From assembly GCA_021781455.1 (NCBI GenBank), contig JAJXWV010000082.1, forward strand, positions 1-47,258: a DNA stretch of 47,258 nucleotides, written 5' to 3'. Of this stretch, positions 17,405 through 45,521 are shown piece by piece. Each line of letters begins with the position of its first letter. The stretch's first letter is position 1. This DNA comes from Acidobacteriota bacterium. Lineage in GTDB: Bacteria > Acidobacteriota > Thermoanaerobaculia > Gp7-AA8. Below the pieces are notes generated by a model. That model ran no database searches, was not told the DNA's origin, and worked only from the letters and a program-made list of their open reading frames with translations. Position numbers and translations under genes: made by a program.

Positions 17405-20400
17405 CTACGCGGCGATCGTCTGCAGGAGGCCTTCGATCACTTCGATGACCGCCGCGCCGCGCGAGTTCAGCGGGAATGACAGGACGCCGTTCGGGGAGAA
17501 CTTCACCTGCGGGTTCTGCTGCATCAGCTGCAGCAGCTTGTTGGGATCGACTCGGGCCTGGGGCGTCAGCTTGACCACGCCGCGGGACCCTTCCCGGACG
17601 ACGGAGATGACGCCGAGTTTCTGCGCGAACTGCTTGACCTTCACGAAATGGAGCAGGCTGTCGACGTTGGGCGGCAGGGCGCCGAAGCGGTCGCGCATCT
17701 CGTTGCGGATGTCGTCGAGGCGCAGGTCCGTGGTGGCCGAGGCGATCTTCTTGTAGAACGTCATGCGCAGGTTCTCGTCGGTGATGTAGTCCTGCGGGAT
17801 GTAGATGTCCACGCCCAGGTTCATGGAGGTCTGCACCTCCTCCTCGATCTTCTCTCCCTTGAGCTCGCGGATGGTTTCCTCGAGGAGCCGGGTGTACATC
17901 TCGAAGCCCACGGCGGCGATCTCGCCGGACTGCTCGCCACCGAGGATGTTGCCGGCGCCGCGGATCTCGAGGTCGCGGGCGGCGATGCGGAAGCCGGCGC
18001 CGAGGTCGGAGAACTCCTGGATCGCGGCCAGACGCTTGCGCGCGTCGCCGGCCAGGACGCGCTCGCCGGGGATCAGCAGGTAGCAGAAGGCCAGCCGGTC
18101 GCTGCGGCCGACCCGGCCGCGGAGCTGGTAGAGCTGGGAGAGGCCGAAGCGTTCAGCATGATTTATTAATATAGTATTGCATGCTGGAATATCGATACCA
18201 TTTTCGATGATGGTCGTGGCCAGCAGCACGTCGTACTCGCGGCTGATGAAGGCCGACATGGCCTTCTCCAGCTCGCGCTCGTCCATCTGGCCGTGGCCGA
18301 TGATCACGCGCAGGCCGGGAAGGACCTGCTCGAGGTACTCCTTCATCGCGTAGATCGACTCCACGCGGTTGTGGACGAAGAACACCTGGCCTCCGCGATC
18401 GACCTCGAAGGCGATGGCGTCGCGGACGAACTCGTCGTTGAAGGGGACCACCGCGGTCTGGATGGCCAGGCGGTCCTTCGGCGGAGTCTCGATGACGGAG
18501 ATGTCGCGGATCCCGACCAGCGACATGTGCAGCGTTCGGGGAATCGGAGTGGCCGACATGGCCAGGACGTCGATGGCCTTCTTGACCTGCTTGAGCCGTT
18601 CCTTCTGGGCCACGCCGAAGCGCTGTTCCTCGTCGATGACCATCAGGCCCAGATCCTTGAAGCGGATGTCCTTCGACAGGACGCGGTGCGTGCCGATGAC
18701 GACGTCGATCTCGCCCGATTCGAGCTTGCGCACGATCTCCTTCTGCTCCTTCGCGGAGTAGTAGCGGGTGAGCAGCTCGATGGTCACGGGGAACGAGGCG
18801 AAGCGCCGCAGGAACGTGCGGTAGTGCTGGTAGGCGAGGATGGTCGTGGGAGCCAGCAGCGCCACCTGCTTGCCGTCCATGACGGACTTGAACGCGGCGC
18901 GCATGGCCACCTCGGTCTTGCCGTATCCGACGTCGCCGCAGAGGAGGCGGTCCATCGGCTTGCGGCTCTCCATGTCCGACTTCACGTCGTCGATGGCCGC
19001 CATCTGGTCTTCGGTCTCGTCGAACTCGAAGGCTTCCTCGAACTCGAACTGCCACGGCGAGTCCTTGCTGAAGGCATGGCCCTGCACCATCTGGCGCGTG
19101 GCGTAGAGCTCGAGCAACTCGTCGGCCATGTCGCGCATGGCTTTCTTGACCGAGGCTTTCTTGCGCGCCCAGGTCGTGCCGCCGAGCTTGTCCATCTGCG
19201 GCTGCGCGGCATCCTCGCCGCCGGCCGAGTATTTCTGGATGAGATTGAGGTTCTCCATCGGCATCAGCAGCTTGCCGCCGCCGGAGTACTCGATCTCCAT
19301 GACTTCGCGCTCGGTCTCGCCGAAGGGAATGCGCTGCAGTCCGTGGAAACGGCCCACGCCGTGGTCGACGTGGACGATGTAGTCGCCTGTCTTCAGGTCG
19401 CGAAGATCGGTGATGAAGGCCTCGGTGGTCCTGCGGGTGCGCGATCCGACGCGTGTGGAGGTGGGCGGCTCGAACAGGTCCCACTCGGAGTAGGCGACGA
19501 GGCCGAGCTCTTCGAACGAAAAACCGCGGGCCATGGTGCCGTGCGTGACCAGCAGCTCGTCGGCATTCTTCTCGTCGGTGGTGAAGGCGATGTTGAACTC
19601 GCGGAGCAGGCGCTCGATTTTTTCGGAGCCGCCCTTGGTGGCCGCGAAGAAGATCTGGCGCTTCCCTTCCGCTCGCTGTCTGGCAACGTCGGAGGCGAAG
19701 TCGGGCAGGCGGTTGGTGTAGCGATCGGTCTGCTGGGCGTGGATGCGGAGCTCGCGATACCCGGCCGTGGCGACCCCCTCATCCGCCTTCGGCACCTTCT
19801 CCCCCGCTGCGGCGGGGGGCAAGGCTCTCGGTTCGGGTGAGGGGCTGTGAAGAGCACGCGTCACGTGGATCTCGCTGAGCGACACGCGGGCCGTGCCGAT
19901 GAAGTGCAGGATCTCGTCGCCGGGGGTGACCAGCTTCTGCGGAGGGTAGACCGCGCGCCCCTTTTCGGCGGCGGCCTCGTACTCGGTGCGCAGCAGCGAC
20001 TCGTACTTGGCGACCGTGTTGACGATCTGCTCCGGCTCGACGAGGGCCAGAGTCCATCCGTCCAGGTACTGCGCGAACGACGCGCTCTCGGTCGCGGCGG
20101 GGATGTAGTTGGCAATCCCCGGGAACGTGCCGTTCTCGTTGAGCCGCTCGATCTTCTCGACCTCGGCGCGTTTCCAGAGCAGATCGTTGAAATCGAGCGA
20201 CAGCCGGCGCGCCAGGGCGCTGCGCACCTCGCGCGTGACCGCGAACTGCGTCATCGGCAGGATCGTCACCGCTCCCGACGGTTCCTCGGAACGCTGCGAC
20301 TCCAGTTCGAACCAGCGCAGCGACTCGATCGTGTCGCCGAACAGCTCGATGCGCACGGGGCGCGAGGTGTTCGGCGGGAAGAGATCGAGGATCCCGCCGC

Positions 20401-20941
20401 GGAAGGCGAACTCGCCCGCCTCGCCCACGAGATCGGTGCGCACGAAGCCGTTGTCGGTGAGCGTCTGCAGAATTTCGCGGACATCGATGTCTTCGTTCTC
20501 CGCGAAGTGGAGCACGCGCCGGCGGAACGACGCCGGCTGCGGCAGCCGCGAGAACAGCGCGCGCACCGGAACGACGAGCAGGTCGGAGTGGCTGTCGACG
20601 AGCTCGCCGAGGGCTCGCACCTCCTCGCGCGCAACGCCGAGAGAGGGCTCGACGTCCTGATAGGGAGAAAGCGACGGCGACGGGTACATCGAGACGCACA
20701 GCGGATCGTCGTGAAAGAGGCGCAGGGCCGACTCGAAATCGTCCAGGGCGGCGTCACCCGGAACGATCACGGCCAGCCGCTGATGCTCGTGCTCTTTCAG
20801 CGCGGCCAGGATCAGCGCTCGCGCCTCGACCGACGCACCGGTCAGCTCGACGCGTTCGCCTGACCCGAAGAGCGGGCGCAGCGCGGCGCTGCCGGCGACG
20901 TCTTTGCGGAGCTGGGCTATGAGGTGGTCGTTGCGGGTCAC
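17405..20941 (-). CDS. mfd: Transcription-repair coupling factor
   Basis: DNA translocase that removes stalled RNA polymerase and recruits UvrA. 1178 residues, slightly longer than the 1148 of E. coli. In order: a UvrB-like N-terminal module, the RNA-polymerase-interacting CarD-like domain (about 510-560, TGDYIVHVDHGVGRF), and the helicase core with Walker A GDVGYGKTE (about 665) and DEEQRFGV (about 770), then the translocation and C-terminal regulatory domain. Residues about 366-389 are not Mfd: they are translated from a 72-bp palindromic element (19774-19845) inserted in frame just before the segment linking to the polymerase-binding domain. Confidence 0.96.
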   Translation of the reverse strand: MTRNDHLIAQLRKDVAGSAALRPLFGSGERVELTGASVEARALILAALKEHEHQRLAVIVPGDAALDDFESALRLFHDDPLCVSMYPSPSLSPYQDVEPSLGVAREEVRALGELVDSHSDLLVVPVRALFSRLPQPASFRRRVLHFAENEDIDVREILQTLTDNGFVRTDLVGEAGEFAFRGGILDLFPPNTSRPVRIELFGDTIESLRWFELESQRSEEPSGAVTILPMTQFAVTREVRSALARRLSLDFNDLLWKRAEVEKIERLNENGTFPGIANYIPAATESASFAQYLDGWTLALVEPEQIVNTVAKYESLLRTEYEAAAEKGRAVYPPQKLVTPGDEILHFIGTARVSLSEIHVTRALHSPSPEPRALPPAAAGEKVPKADEGVATAGYRELRIHAQQTDRYTNRLPDFASDVARQRAEGKRQIFFAATKGGSEKIERLLREFNIAFTTDEKNADELLVTHGTMARGFSFEELGLVAYSEWDLFEPPTSTRVGSRTRRTTEAFITDLRDLKTGDYIVHVDHGVGRFHGLQRIPFGETEREVMEIEYSGGGKLLMPMENLNLIQKYSAGGEDAAQPQMDKLGGTTWARKKASVKKAMRDMADELLELYATRQMVQGHAFSKDSPWQFEFEEAFEFDETEDQMAAIDDVKSDMESRKPMDRLLCGDVGYGKTEVAMRAAFKSVMDGKQVALLAPTTILAYQHYRTFLRRFASFPVTIELLTRYYSAKEQKEIVRKLESGEIDVVIGTHRVLSKDIRFKDLGLMVIDEEQRFGVAQKERLKQVKKAIDVLAMSATPIPRTLHMSLVGIRDISVIETPPKDRLAIQTAVVPFNDEFVRDAIAFEVDRGGQVFFVHNRVESIYAMKEYLEQVLPGLRVIIGHGQMDERELEKAMSAFISREYDVLLATTIIENGIDIPACNTILINHAERFGLSQLYQLRGRVGRSDRLAFCYLLIPGERVLAGDARKRLAAIQEFSDLGAGFRIAARDLEIRGAGNILGGEQSGEIAAVGFEMYTRLLEETIRELKGEKIEEEVQTSMNLGVDIYIPQDYITDENLRMTFYKKIASATTDLRLDDIRNEMRDRFGALPPNVDSLLHFVKVKQFAQKLGVISVVREGSRGVVKLTPQARVDPNKLLQLMQQNPQVKFSPNGVLSFPLNSRGAAVIEVIEGLLQTIAA
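19774..19845. repeat. Palindromic element inside mfd, in frame
   Basis: The plus strand reads CCCCTCATCCGCCTTCGGCA ... GGGTGAGGGGC with an internal stem CCCCCGCTGCGGCGGGGG. It is 72 bases, exactly 24 codons, and the Mfd frame is open through it, giving a Pro/Ala-rich peptide (SPSPEPRALPPAAAGEK). Terminal inverted repeats CCCCTCATCC/GGGTGAGGGG bound it. No other copy is seen in this window. Elements of this general look occur between genes in many GC-rich genomes, from memory. Confidence 0.72.
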
Positions 20942-21091: not shown

Positions 21092-22531
21092 TCAGGGAGC
21101 GAAGTACCCGCCGATCGTTCGCGCAGTCAGCCGGGGCGACTTGAGCACAACGTGCACGGTCCGCCACTCGTTGTGCTTCGAGAAGTCGGCGATCTGATAA
21201 GTGATCGCGAACTGCGCGCGCAGGTCCTTCTCGATCTGGGTGTACTTCGCGCTGAGGGTCTGTTGCGTTCCGCCGGCCACGAACCCGCCGGTCTCGGCGG
21301 CCAGGAACTTCATGTGGTCGTAATCTTCCTCGGCCGTCGGCTCGAGGCTGTCATAGGCGACGAAATAGAGCGGGATGCCGGCTTCGCGCACGGTCTTCTC
21401 GACGTCGTCGAAGGAATCCAGCGAGGAGTTGTCGCCGCCATCGGTGAGGACGACGATGGCCCGGCGGTTCTTCTCGTTCTTCAGCTCGCGAACCGCGGAG
21501 TCGATGGCGTCGAAGAGCGCCGTCTCTCCGGCGGGCTTCATGCCTGTCAGCGCCTTCTCGATCAGCGCCTTGTCCGAGGTCAGCTCCTGCAGCCGCCGCG
21601 GCACGTCGTGAATGCCGAACACCGCGCAGCGATCGCCCGGCTTGAGCGTCCGCTCCACGAAGCCCACCGCGGCGCGGGTGGCGTCGTTCATCGAGTAGGT
21701 CATGCTGGCCGACGCATCGAGCAGCAGGGCGATCGAGATCGGCTGGTCGAACGCCTTGCCGAACTCGATGATCTTTCCCTCGCTGTTCCCGTCCATGATC
21801 CGGAACAGCGACTTGTCGACGTCGTCGCGCGCGTTGCCGTTGCGGTCCACGACCGAGACGTAGAGCGGAACCGTCCGCACATCGACGTTCTCGACGTGCA
21901 CGTCGCCGGCACTCGACCAGAAGTCGGCCGCTTCTTCGCCCGACTTCGTCCGCGCCGTGGCCTGCAGGAATCCCCCCGCCAGATGGTCGGGCGTGACTTC
22001 GAACCGGTACGGTGCCGTCGCAGCCGTGGCCACGACCTGCCCGTTCTCCCACAGCTCCACGGTCGTGATCGGATCGTCGCCCGGTGCCGTGGTCAACGCC
22101 TGGAATTCACCCTTCGAGGCATTCAGCGCGCGCAGCTTGACCGTCAGCGGCTTGTGCCCGTGGTTCACGGTCTCGCTCCACTGCACGCGCTTCTTCTTGT
22201 CGGCCGACCACGCGGTCACCGTGATGCGGTGCTCGACCGTGCGCTGTCCGAAATCGACGGTGGCCCGATAGGGCGACAGCAGCGCATCCGTGATCTTCGC
22301 CCCGTCGACCGAGATCGCCACCTTCGCGCCGTCGAACGGCGGGTCGACGGTCAGCGCGACAACCCCTTTGTATTCGCCAGCGATGCCATCCGATACTTTG
22401 CGGCTGAGGAGAAGCTGAGTTGTTGTGTTCGCTTCGGCTGGAGAAGGATGAAGGAGGGTCAGGGAAAGAGTCACTGCCGCAATGAGGATCTGTGCCTCAA
22501 AGGGGCGAAGCCACCGCCGTGCTGCTTTCAT
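21092..22531 (-). CDS. Exported VWFA-domain protein (Acidobacterial VWFA-related type)
   Basis: 479 residues starting at ATG 22531, which gives a signal peptide (LIAAVTLSLTLLHPSPAEA, cleavage near 35). Two Ig-like beta regions follow (about 40-240), then a von Willebrand A domain with MIDAS DASASM (about 273) and VVLTDGGDN, and a final beta part. The order and spacing fit the family annotated as 'VWFA-related Acidobacterial domain' (from memory). Probably periplasmic or surface, with metal-dependent ligand binding. The first 35 bases overlap the 3' end of the lytic transglycosylase gene, so they are one operon; a longer frame to 22741 runs antiparallel in use and is not supported. Confidence 0.8.
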   Translation of the reverse strand: MKAARRWLRPFEAQILIAAVTLSLTLLHPSPAEANTTTQLLLSRKVSDGIAGEYKGVVALTVDPPFDGAKVAISVDGAKITDALLSPYRATVDFGQRTVEHRITVTAWSADKKKRVQWSETVNHGHKPLTVKLRALNASKGEFQALTTAPGDDPITTVELWENGQVVATAATAPYRFEVTPDHLAGGFLQATARTKSGEEAADFWSSAGDVHVENVDVRTVPLYVSVVDRNGNARDDVDKSLFRIMDGNSEGKIIEFGKAFDQPISIALLLDASASMTYSMNDATRAAVGFVERTLKPGDRCAVFGIHDVPRRLQELTSDKALIEKALTGMKPAGETALFDAIDSAVRELKNEKNRRAIVVLTDGGDNSSLDSFDDVEKTVREAGIPLYFVAYDSLEPTAEEDYDHMKFLAAETGGFVAGGTQQTLSAKYTQIEKDLRAQFAITYQIADFSKHNEWRTVHVVLKSPRLTARTIGGYFAP

Positions 22532-24893
22532 AAATCCGCCGGTATTCGAAGCGGTTCCGCGTGACCGTCTTGACGTAGAGGCGCGTCTCCGCGTACGGAA
22601 TTGATTCAACGAATAGGTCAATGTCGTCGATCGGCGTATCAGCAATCCATTTGCCAACGGCTTCCTCGCCCGCGTTGTACGCGGCAACGGCCAGCACGGG
22701 ATTGCCGTGCATGTCCGCCAGCTTTTGCGAGAACTCCGCAACTCCGATCTCGATGTTCACCATTGGATGAAAAAGGGACGCGCGGGTGACACCTTCGATC
22801 CCGGCGCGCGCAGCGATGGCCTGCGCTTCCTCCGGCATGATCTGCATCAGCCCGACGGCGCCGGCGTTGGAGACGGTCGTCGGCTCGAAGCCGCTCTCCT
22901 GCCGGATGATGGACGCCACCAGGTACGGATCGACGCCGCGCTTCTGCGCCTCGGCGCTGATGATCGGCCAGTCGTTCAGCGGATAGAGAATCTCCCAGAA
23001 GCGCTGCGGGATGTTGGCGCCGCCGTGGCGCACGAACTCGCGAAACCGCCTCTGCAGGATGCCGTTCGCCTCGAACGGCTCGCCGCCGCGCACATAGACG
23101 TCGGCGAGCATGAACTGAAGACCGAGGTTCTCGGGATACGCGGCGGCGAGCCGCTTCATCTCCCTCGAGGCATCGCGCGCCAGGTAGATGGCCTCGAGCT
23201 CACGCACCGCCTCGATGCGCGGATCGGCCACCGCGGCAATCTGCGCCTGCACGTCGGGAAAGAGCTGCGCGTCGGGCGCAGAGCTGTCACCCGGAGCTGG
23301 CGAAGCCGCCGGCTCAGAGTGACGGGACAGCAGCACCGACTGCCCCTTTCCCTCCATGATCTCCCTTGCGCGGTAGCTGTAGTACGAGAACGGGTACTCC
23401 GCGATCAGCTGCCGGAACTTCGCATCGCGCTCGTCGATTCGGCCGGACTTCTCCAGGATCTTTCCCGACCAGAACAGCGCATTGCTCGTGTAATCGCCGT
23501 CGGGAAGGCGTTTGACGTATTCCTCGAATGTGCCGAGCGCGTCGGCGTCGTGGCCCCACAGCGTATAAGTCCAGCCGAGGGTCCAGAGGTTCTCGCCTTC
23601 GTTGCCCGTGTCGCCCTCGTCAATGGCCTGCCGGAGGTTGGCAACCGACTTCTCGTAATCGGTCACGTCGGTGACGTAGTACTTGGCGCGGAGGACCTTC
23701 GCCTCGATGGCTTCGCCGCTCGAAGGAAATTCGTGCTCGACCTCGGCCAGGCCGCGGAGGAAGAGCTCCGGTTGTCCGGCGCGCCAGGCAGCACGCGCCC
23801 GCATCAGCATCTGCCGGGCATCGAGCCGTACACCGGAAGTCTCGTCCAGCAGCTCGGCGTACTTTCTCGAGCCGAAGAGCGCACGAAGACGGAGATTGCG
23901 ATAGGCGGCGCTCTTTTCCTCCACGGGATCGCGCCTGGCAACGCGCGCCATCAGGTCGAACGCCTGATCGTAACGGTCGTCGCGCACGAGGTGCCCGACC
24001 AGCGTCAGCGACTGCTCCGAAGAAAGCGCGTCGAGCGGCGCCGCGGGATCCGAAGCGAGCTCACCGTATGTCTTCTCCGTGAATCGCCCCTGGGGGTAAT
24101 CCGTCAGCAGGTGCATGCGCAACCGCGTGGCGAGATCGTGACGCCCGGCCTTGTCCAGGCTGCCGGCCAGGTCGACGAGCTCACCCTCGCTGAGCTCGTC
24201 GATCGGAGTGTCCATCGCTCGAGCGAACGATGATTCGGTTGCCGCCGTGTCGCCGGCCTGCGCTTCGAGTGAGGGAAGGCGAAGGAGCGCCACCGTCGCG
24301 GCCGAACTGCCGGGCGCGCTGGCGATGATCTGCGACGCGATCGCTGCCGCTTCCCGCAGATGATTCCGGTTCTGCTCGACATCGATCAGCCTCAGCTGGA
24401 GAAACGGAGCAACACGCGGATCGGCGGTCGCGGCCGTCGTCAGCACGTCAAACGCAGCGTCCCAGCGCTTCTGCTCGACATCGAACAGGCCGAGCAGCGC
24501 AGTCGCGCGCCGGGCCGTGACGGGGTCTCGCGACGCCGCGAGCGCGACCAGGCTCCGCTCGTATTGAGTGAGGTTTCCGGCATCGTAAAGCCTGCGCGCT
24601 GCCTCGATCGTTGGGGCCGTCGGATCAGCCACCGGCGCCGGGGGCGGCGGGGGCGGGATGGGCGGGAGGGGGGCGGGGACGTTGTGCGCACAGCCGAGCA
24701 CGAGGACCAGCAGCGCGGTGCCGGCTGCGGCACGAAGCCATCCTTGTGGTGCCGGCTTCCAGCCGGCCGGCGGCCGGGCATCCTGCCCGGTCGCTGTTTG
24801 TGCGATCGGAAGTCGTCGGGCTGGAAGCCCGACGACCGGCCGGCTGGAAGCCGGCACCACCCCGCGCGCCGTCGCTGCGGCGCAGATGCTCAC
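22497..24893 (-). CDS. Soluble lytic transglycosylase-like lipoprotein
   Basis: 798 residues. A long alpha-helical repeat region (about 90-640) is followed by a lysozyme-like SLT domain with the catalytic Glu in IRQESGF (about residue 670) and GLMQIMPEEA, AAYNAGEEAV. It cleaves peptidoglycan glycan strands to anhydromuropeptides, anchored in the periplasm. I choose GTG 24893, whose GTGA overlaps the GNAT stop; ATG 24914 is the alternative. Either way the lipobox LVLGC falls at residue 68, because residues about 11-50 are translated from a palindromic element. A second short element encodes about 523-536 (SRHSEPAASPAPGD). The lipobox context is otherwise normal (WLRAAAGTALLVLVLGC). Confidence 0.85.
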   Translation of the reverse strand: MSICAAATARGVVPASSRPVVGLPARRLPIAQTATGQDARPPAGWKPAPQGWLRAAAGTALLVLVLGCAHNVPAPLPPIPPPPPPAPVADPTAPTIEAARRLYDAGNLTQYERSLVALAASRDPVTARRATALLGLFDVEQKRWDAAFDVLTTAATADPRVAPFLQLRLIDVEQNRNHLREAAAIASQIIASAPGSSAATVALLRLPSLEAQAGDTAATESSFARAMDTPIDELSEGELVDLAGSLDKAGRHDLATRLRMHLLTDYPQGRFTEKTYGELASDPAAPLDALSSEQSLTLVGHLVRDDRYDQAFDLMARVARRDPVEEKSAAYRNLRLRALFGSRKYAELLDETSGVRLDARQMLMRARAAWRAGQPELFLRGLAEVEHEFPSSGEAIEAKVLRAKYYVTDVTDYEKSVANLRQAIDEGDTGNEGENLWTLGWTYTLWGHDADALGTFEEYVKRLPDGDYTSNALFWSGKILEKSGRIDERDAKFRQLIAEYPFSYYSYRAREIMEGKGQSVLLSRHSEPAASPAPGDSSAPDAQLFPDVQAQIAAVADPRIEAVRELEAIYLARDASREMKRLAAAYPENLGLQFMLADVYVRGGEPFEANGILQRRFREFVRHGGANIPQRFWEILYPLNDWPIISAEAQKRGVDPYLVASIIRQESGFEPTTVSNAGAVGLMQIMPEEAQAIAARAGIEGVTRASLFHPMVNIEIGVAEFSQKLADMHGNPVLAVAAYNAGEEAVGKWIADTPIDDIDLFVESIPYAETRLYVKTVTRNRFEYRRIYESSTAVASPL
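23286..23326. repeat. Short CACTCTGAGCC-family element inside the lytic transglycosylase
   Basis: The plus strand reads TGTCACCCGGAGC at one end and GGCTCAGAGTGACGGG at the other, with GCGAAGCCGCCG between. It is the outer arm pair of the composite palindrome with nearly all the interior missing. The reading frame stays open across it and encodes RHSEPAASPAPGDS, between a helical repeat (YRAREIMEGKG) and the next helix. Confidence 0.78.
24746..24860. repeat. Triple-hairpin element inside the transglycosylase signal region
   Basis: Perfect 25-bp outer arms (24746-24770 and 24836-24860) with the GGCTTCCAGCC core, plus two inner hairpins (24772-24792, GCCGGGCA-TCC-TGCCCGGT; 24814-24834, CGTCGGGCTGGAAGCCCGACG by halves). 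The frame is open through all 115 bases, adding about 38 residues in front of the lipoprotein signal. Confidence 0.85.
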
Positions 24894-25261
24894 CGTACTC
24901 TCCTCACCATCCATGTCTCTCCCTCGTCCGTGAATCCGGACCTGCGGAAGAACTCGCGCGCCTGGCCCGGCTCGGCGATCAAACGCTCGCGATCCATCTT
25001 CCGCGCGAACCGCTCGAGCTCATCGAGCATCGCCCGGCCGATGCGCTTGCGCCGCAGCTCGTTCTTCACGACCAGTTGCTCCACGCGCACCGCTTCGGGC
25101 GTGATTTCGATGGTTAGCACCGCCACGAGATCGCCGACCAGCTTGCCGAGCAGACCGCATGCCGAAACAGAATGTTCCTTGCCTTGCGCTTTCAGGAACG
25201 AGTCGATGGTGTCTCGGTCCTCGCTCTCGATGGGTCGAATAAAGAGCCGTTGTCCCCTCAT
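24890..25261 (-). CDS. GNAT-family N-acetyltransferase
   Basis: 123 residues with the acetyl-CoA-binding pattern VVKNELRRKRIGRAMLDELE (about 73-92, the Q/RxxGxG/A loop reading RRKRIG) and a C-terminal FFRRSGF typical of the fold. The acceptor is unknown. I start at ATG 25261, where RLFIRPI begins the fold; an upstream ATG at 25306 adds 15 unrelated residues. Its TGA overlaps the transglycosylase GTG, so it is the first gene of a GNAT-transglycosylase-VWA run. Confidence 0.82.
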   Translation of the reverse strand: MRGQRLFIRPIESEDRDTIDSFLKAQGKEHSVSACGLLGKLVGDLVAVLTIEITPEAVRVEQLVVKNELRRKRIGRAMLDELERFARKMDRERLIAEPGQAREFFRRSGFTDEGETWMVRRVR

Positions 25262-28853: not shown

Positions 28854-28900
28854 GCCGGTGGCCGTGAACCTGTCGGGACGATCGTCATCCTGAGCGACTT

Positions 28901-29005
28901 GTCATCCCGAGCGTGAGCGAGGGATCTGGGTGGGAGGGGCGGCACGATGGGCGGATTGCGCGCCTCCCGCCCTCTTTCAGATCCCTCGCTCACGCTCGGG
29001 ATGAC
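28901..29005. repeat. GTCATCCCGAGCG palindrome, copy 1
   Basis: Perfect 28-bp arms at 28901-28928 and 28978-29005, each reading GTCATCCCGAGCGTGAGCGA then GGGATCTG, with a 49-base interior. A partial extra arm (GTCATCCTGAGCGACTT) lies at 28883-28899. It fills the gap between the lipoprotein and tRNA-Gly. A second copy is at 45351. Confidence 0.9.
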
Positions 29006-29062
29006 GAGTTACGGAATGGTCGCCGGGCGAGCTCCCGTTGTAGAATTTCGCCTCCCGAGCGA

Positions 29063-34246: not shown

Positions 34247-34468
34247 CCCGTCACTCTGAGCCGGCGGAGCCGCGGGGAAGGGCGGACGGGTGAGCGGCGT
34301 AGCGCGGCGAAGAGTCTCAAGCTTCCCAATCGTCCCGGTAAGAGACTCTTCGCCGCGCTCCACCGCTCCCGCCTTCCGCCGCCCCCGCGGTTGCGCCGGC
34401 TCAGAGTGACGGGGGCACGGTTGCGCCCTGACCGGGGCGCGGTTCCGCCGGCTCAGGATCAGGATGAC
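34247..34468. repeat. Composite palindrome plus extra half-arm
   Basis: Left end CCCGTCACTCTGAGCCGG at 34247, right end CAGAGTGACGGG at about 34413. The interior pair GCGGCGAAGAGTCTC / GAGACTCTTCGCCGCGC flanks CCCAATCGTCCCGGTAA. After it, 34431-34468 is another partial right arm (GCGGTTCCGCCGGCTCAGGAT). It fills most of the 304-base gap before the aminopeptidase gene. Confidence 0.87.
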
Positions 34469-44762: not shown

Positions 44763-44966
44763 CCGTCATCCCGAGCCGACGAAACCGCAGCCCCGTCACT
44801 CTGAGCCGGCGAAACCGCGGGGGCGGCGGGTGGGCGGGAGCGGCGGAGCGCGGCGAAGAGTCTCTTACCGGGACGATTTGTCAGCTGGAGACCCTTCGCC
44901 GCGCTGCGCCGCTTCCACCCGACCGCCCTTCCCACGGCTCCGCCGGCTCAGAGTCAGAGTGACGGG
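44763..44966. repeat. Composite palindrome with duplicated left arm
   Basis: First left arm CCGTCATCCCGAGCCGACGA (44763), second CCCCGTCACTCTGAGCCGGC (from 44791), then GGCGGAGCGCGGCGAAGAGT, ACCGGGACGATTTG, and a right arm ending CTCAGAGTCAGAGTGACGGG (to 44966) with the six-base duplication seen also at 36347. It fills the gap between the pump and the XRE-type gene. Confidence 0.86.
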
Positions 44967-45193: not shown

Positions 45194-45350
45194 CGTCCTG
45201 TAAATACGTCGGAGGGTCGGTGGTCGTCGTGCGCCGATCCCTCCGGCTGAAGCGATGCGAATAGAGACTTGCAAACGGCGCGCCGTGGGAGCCGTTGCCC
45301 GTCATCCGGAGAGGCTGTGCAGAAATCGAGAACGGCGCGGACGCGCTACA

Positions 45351-45469
45351 TGTCATTCCGAGCGTCAGCGAGGAATCTGGGAGGGCCGGGGGCGCGCCAT
45401 CTGAGCGGTTTCAGCACACTCAGCGCGCCGCCCGTTCCCCCAGATCCCTCGCTGACGCTCGGGATGACA
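45351..45469. repeat. GTCATYCCGAGCG palindrome, copy 2
   Basis: Arms at 45351-45380 (TGTCATTCCGAGCGTCAGCG...) and 45440-45469, matching in 28 of 30 positions; both differences are transitions. The interior is 59 bases. Same family as 28901. The rest of the gap 45194-45521 shows only a fragment CAGAGTGACGGGG at 45501-45513 of the other composite family. Confidence 0.88.
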
Positions 45470-45521
45470 AGCAGCCATGAGCCGACTCTGCAAGGCCTTT
45501 CAGAGTGACGGGGCCATACAC

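Follow-up and report, generated by a model that had tools for sequence, protein, structure and literature searches.

The window analysed here, the whole stretch of 47,258 nucleotides, carries an intact mfd gene (17405–20941, minus strand) encoding a transcription-repair coupling factor of 1178 residues. The assignment rests on the ORF, on the Pfam domains of the product (UvrB_inter, CarD_TRCF_RID, DEAD, Helicase_C and TRCF) and on its match to E. coli Mfd (2eyq, E-value 1e-211). Inside the gene, at 19774–19845, lies the 72-bp inverted repeat reported in the first-pass annotation, which folds better than shuffled sequences. The claim that the reading frame is kept also holds: the 1178-residue ORF runs uninterrupted across the palindrome, and both flanks are strongly coding by codon scores, on one strand and in one frame. 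The palindrome segment itself has a non-native codon score of –0.58, compared with ~+0.5 to +0.6 in the flanks. It had been described as exactly 24 codons; its length does equal 24 codons, but its start lies off a codon boundary, and it covers approximately Mfd residues 366–390 (SPEPRALPPAAAGEKVPKADEGV region). We describe it as a REP-like palindromic element inserted in frame, with no strand assigned, on the basis of its multiple copies in its own genome, its absence from most relatives and its in-frame flanks.

In the mfd product, UvrB_inter occupies residues 144–233 and the RNA-polymerase-interacting domain residues 516–572 (Pfam). In an alignment with E. coli Mfd, the palindrome segment corresponds to residues ~340–365 of the E. 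coli protein, which is the boundary between domains D1b and D3 in the structure of that protein. An AlphaFold model built with 12 sequences gave a pLDDT below 50 and no secondary structure for residues 359–393, flanked by better-modelled domains, although the model is weak as a whole (mean pLDDT of 52). The peptide encoded by the palindrome is predicted to be a disordered linker between D1b and D3. The annotated linker location is retained, but the peptide does not lie directly before the RNA-polymerase-binding domain, which begins ~126 residues further towards the C-terminus. The intact motifs and conserved flanks suggest that Mfd is still functional with the insert, and the insert may be close to neutral.

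The palindrome is imperfect, with 23 of the 36 opposed positions complementary. Its 11-bp outer arms, both seen in the fold, are CCCCTCATCCG (19775–19785, plus strand), a conserved REP tail kept in other copies, and CGGGTGAGGGG (19834–19844, plus strand), which closes the palindrome and was also examined in a scan of copies. The inner hairpin CCTTCTCCCCCGCTGCGGCGGGGGGCAAGG (19795–19824, plus strand) is found in both DNA and RNA folds, is common to other copies, and contains stems of 4 bp (19795–19798/19821–19824) and 7 bp (19801–19807/19812–19818). Folded as RNA in the mfd sense, the palindrome reaches –44.4 kcal/mol (z = –4.25), a value equalled by none of 200 shuffles; folded as DNA, it gives z = –2.5 relative to shuffled sequence. 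A search of the palindrome region against Rfam returned no match.

A dispersed palindrome family

Copies were surveyed in the 4.88-Mb genome carrying the window (G000), using stretches fetched around the copies rather than a full gene annotation. This search, which the first-pass annotation had proposed, found ~102 exact or near-exact copies of the core CCTCATCCGCCTTCGGCACCTTCTCCC, most of them intergenic and six within genes, all six open and in frame. Reversed-pattern controls gave no match with a gapped pattern and one with a three-mismatch pattern. Many copies are inverted doublets, in which a CCCTCTCCCCG...CGGGGAGAGGGCCGGGGTGAGGGG unit is followed by a spacer and then by a CCCCTCATCCG unit. 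The sequence of the inner hairpin differs between copies while its pairing is kept (CC-TTC-GG, GCC-TTC-GGC, CCGC-TTC-GCGG), and a stem of at least 3 bp is present in 10 of the 23 distinct inner loops, compared with 0.57 on shuffling.

The mfd palindrome belongs to a dispersed REP/REPIN-like family. As in REPs, the repeat is a short, folding palindrome of high copy number and is mostly extragenic, the mfd copy being an exception. The REPIN arrangement of two inverted REPs with a spacer is seen in many copies, but not in the mfd copy; in a scan of the copies fetched from its own genome, this copy alone had the closed tail'-hairpin-tail form, and it may be the collapsed product of two inverted units. 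The CCTCATCCG-type family reaches high abundance in several genomes from the same taxonomic family and is sporadic in other Thermoanaerobaculia. Related sequence, with ~79–86% identity over most of the 57-bp consensus, is present on Sinorhizobium/Rhizobium plasmids among the matches listed. These related palindromes, which are presumably those annotated as RIME-type elements, differ from the family described here in belonging to another phylum and in having no annotated gene beneath them, and hence no in-gene case, among the matches listed.

Long inverted repeats of other families are present in the window at 34247–34413, 44798–44954, 45345–45475 and 28897–29009, and the genome is therefore rich in palindromic repeats. 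In addition, a GGCTGGAAGCC-type inverted repeat at 24746–24860 lies over the annotated start of the ORF at 22497–24914 (minus strand); the first codons of this ORF score as non-coding, and its true start may be downstream.

The Mfd linker in relatives

The alignment of Mfd with its relatives had been set beforehand as the test on which the insertion claim would stand or fall, and the claim was not refuted: most relatives lack the segment. The linker is short, with no insert, in 12 of the 18 Mfds from the same family and in all readable Mfds from other families in the class (the count leaves out rows L206, L209 and L215 of the class-level alignment, which were not in the frame of Mfd). The possibility that the segment is native Mfd coding sequence, palindromic by chance, agrees with the intact gene and the open frame, but it is scarcely conceivable given the ~102 near-identical copies of the core, the non-native codon score and the absence from relatives, and it was rejected on these grounds.

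The five other family members with a long linker carry different palindromes in the same linker, also in frame. The insert is a GTCATCCCGAGCCGCGAAGACGGCGAGGGATCC... element in G001, a GTCATCCTGAG...CTCAGGATGACA element in G010, and a GAGACGCC-type element in G005, G014 and G017, and in each case it is a dispersed repeat of the genome in which it lies. An artefact of assembly or binning could be suspected in a metagenome-type genome, since several of the relatives are MAGs and repeats can collapse assemblies. However, strongly coding sequence continues in frame on either side of the palindrome, the contig extends over 47 kb, and inserts are found at the same linker in five other genomes, which makes this explanation practically untenable.

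The GTCATCC...GGATGAC type is represented by the inserts of both G001 and G010, which align well over the parts they share. They are nevertheless probably independent, because each resembles copies in its own genome; in G001, another copy matches the left 40 nt of the insert exactly. When insert presence alone is placed on a tree built without the linker, two or more changes are needed, and the identities of the elements point to at least three, and probably four, independent insertions into this one linker.

The alternative is that the family acquired a single insertion in a common ancestor, and that turnover and gene conversion later replaced it or made it diverge into different palindromes. 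The resemblance between the G001 and G010 inserts speaks for it, as does the common origin preferred for RPE-4, RPE-6 and RPE-7 in Rickettsia (PMC3767692). However, no obvious sequence is common to the CCTCATCCG, GTCATCC and GAGACGCC types, which makes conversion from one into another implausible. Even if type is ignored, the tree needs its two or more presence changes. Copies matching the G001 insert occur in G001 and copies matching the G010 insert in G010, and empty sites between the carrier branches are partly seen in G011, G008, G007 and G015. We regard a single insertion as very unlikely. An empty mfd site, sought within the genus for a target-site duplication, was not found there; the nearest relative, G001, has another insert at this position, and for this reason the exact ends of the insertion cannot be fixed by comparison with it. 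Overall, this stretch of the Mfd linker appears, from the sequences compared, to be a repeatedly used landing site for palindromes.

Palindromes within other genes

Besides mfd, the genic copies in G000 lie in genes for a glycosyltransferase with a C-terminal domain, a DNA methylase, a glycosyltransferase-GNAT protein, an AddB/RecB-like protein (named by eye) and a PLD-ResIII helicase. In the relatives G001, G005, G014 and G015, 4 of the 127 copies examined are genic and in frame, in genes for a MenD-like protein, an Lhr helicase, a xanthine dehydrogenase and an RND transporter. A further G001 copy (L267) was dropped as genic, its frame resembling a shadow ORF. Bacterial genomes are typically 85–90% coding, and the small number of genic copies therefore implies that nearly all genic insertions have been removed. 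Strand and frame (..PAAAGEKVPKADEG..) are shared by four of the six genic copies in G000, and a hand count found the single-hairpin consensus open in five of its six frames; a frame preference among genic copies is only suggestive.

A second palindrome family in G000 has 4 of its 30 fetched copies in frame in genes. A copper ATPase accounts for two of these, in the linkers between its YHS domains; a third precedes a GlgB-like domain, and the fourth lies in a PheT-like protein (names assigned by eye). In the copper ATPase (G000:C40:218413–218704), YHS modules are tandemly duplicated, and each linker contains, in frame, one half of a GGATCC...GGATGACA palindrome; the repeat may have driven the duplication. 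The copy in the PheT-like protein lies at G000:C55:7185–7215; PheT is also a target of RPE-4 in Rickettsia (PMC3767692). The AddB-like protein, read by eye from G000 to G011, has three linker sites occupied by different repeat-derived peptides across genera, and in this it resembles the Mfd linker. One site holds a full doublet in G000, a peptide derived from the same REP family occurs elsewhere in the G009 protein, and G005 has a different repeat-like peptide at that G009 site (by eye).

Two copies lie where genes meet. At G000:C33:19100–24000, one ORF encodes a glycosyltransferase joined to a GNAT acetyltransferase, with a REP where the two meet; the homologues in G005 (C91) are separate, overlapping ORFs in different frames. 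The REP copy is likely to have fused the two genes in G000. At G015:C437:1–1800, a xanthine dehydrogenase has an in-frame REP between its flavoprotein C-terminal domain and its hammerhead domain. These domains are usually encoded by separate genes in bacteria, and the G015 protein may be a second such fusion, of usually separate subunit genes. The two cases suggest that palindromes can join neighbouring genes into one reading frame.

DNA-acting genes hold four of the six genic copies in G000, or three of five if mfd is set aside, and one of the four in relatives, in a small sample. Pure tolerance does not predict the G000 proportion, although the numbers are small; the length and multidomain architecture of such proteins may explain the skew. 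We considered adaptive recruitment, in which palindromes at this linker would be selected for an effect on Mfd (autoinhibition, transcription-coupled repair or mutation rate) or on mfd expression, exerted through a longer D1b–D3 linker or through the mRNA hairpin. Such recruitment would be in keeping with the reuse of the linker by unrelated families, with the copies in DNA-acting genes and with the strong RNA hairpin in mfd mRNA. Many intragenic REPs have also been found in replication and repair genes, accompanied by speculation on a mutator effect (PMC3733652). However, a like pattern is seen in glycosyltransferases, MenD, xanthine dehydrogenase, the RND transporter and the copper ATPase, 12 of the 18 family members lack the insert, and long multidomain proteins with linkers would give an equal skew. 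We consider adaptive recruitment unlikely. It is also rather unlikely that the D1b–D3 linker is a hotspot of convergent domestication, at which unrelated families were recruited since the peptide or hairpin modulates Mfd, as part of a wider tuning of DNA-repair enzymes by REPs.

Known elements and proposed origin

Rickettsia palindromic elements (RPEs), which the first-pass annotation cited as the published precedent for palindromes within genes, are indeed one, but not the only one: REPs inside DNA-repair genes were described in 2013 (PMC3733652). That study reported GTAG- and CGTC-tagged REPs inside uvrA, uvrB, recBCD, dnaE2 and others. It located many intragenic REPs in genes for excinuclease, RecBCD and polymerase, and discussed flexible linkers as places of safe insertion as well as an effect on mutability; its main text does not mention mfd. 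The elements described here are likewise short dispersed palindromes, mostly intergenic and in some cases in frame within genes. They differ in that unrelated families reuse one linker in sister lineages. In-frame REPs are thus already known, and the new part is this repeated use of a single linker by families unrelated to each other.

RPEs are palindromes of 105–146 bp that lie in frame in conserved protein genes, with apparently functional products (PMC2229807), and the insertions into mfd and five other genes resemble them in this respect. At 72 bp, and with a host in Thermoanaerobaculia rather than Rickettsia or Wolbachia, the mfd element is set apart from RPE-1 to RPE-7 by host and description. 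At some RPE loci, different groups lie near each other in orthologues (PMC2229807, PMC3767692), and the Rickettsia japonica study did not decide between insertion hotspots and a single old insertion as the source of shared sites, although it leaned towards a common origin (PMC3767692). In contrast, each insert in the Mfd linker can be traced to a family abundant in the genome that carries it, and separate insertions are therefore better supported here than for RPEs.

REPINs (PMC3116915) are similar in their inverted doublets with a spacer and in the presence of Y1 transposase genes, of which G000 has 14 (Y1_Tnp). Unlike REPINs, the mfd copy consists of one closed unit, and the CCTCATCCG-type family has no adjoining RAYT: none of the 14 genes has the core within ~1.5 kb. 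A separate observation concerns a RAYT-like gene at G000:C39:7611–7847, which has repeated AGGCTGGAAAGCCTGTCC palindromes on both sides; these are possibly the cognate element of that transposase.

Taken together, we hold it very probable that a dispersed, non-autonomous, hairpin-forming element of REP/REPIN-like type inserted into the D1b–D3 linker of Mfd and is tolerated there. Non-autonomous palindromes would insert widely, reaching ~100 places in the genome, possibly as single-stranded hairpins moved by a Y1/HuH (RAYT-like) transposase. Selection would then purge nearly all genic insertions except those in interdomain linkers, loops and gene junctions. The Mfd insert would have survived because it left the reading frame open and added a disordered, hydrophilic peptide, and reuse of the site would reflect tolerance rather than targeting.

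These results add a phylum, Acidobacteriota, and a gene, mfd, to those in which in-frame palindromic insertion is seen; we found no earlier report for mfd. On the question raised in Rickettsia, whether shared sites are hotspots or remnants of one old insertion, the Mfd data favour repeated insertion at one linker.
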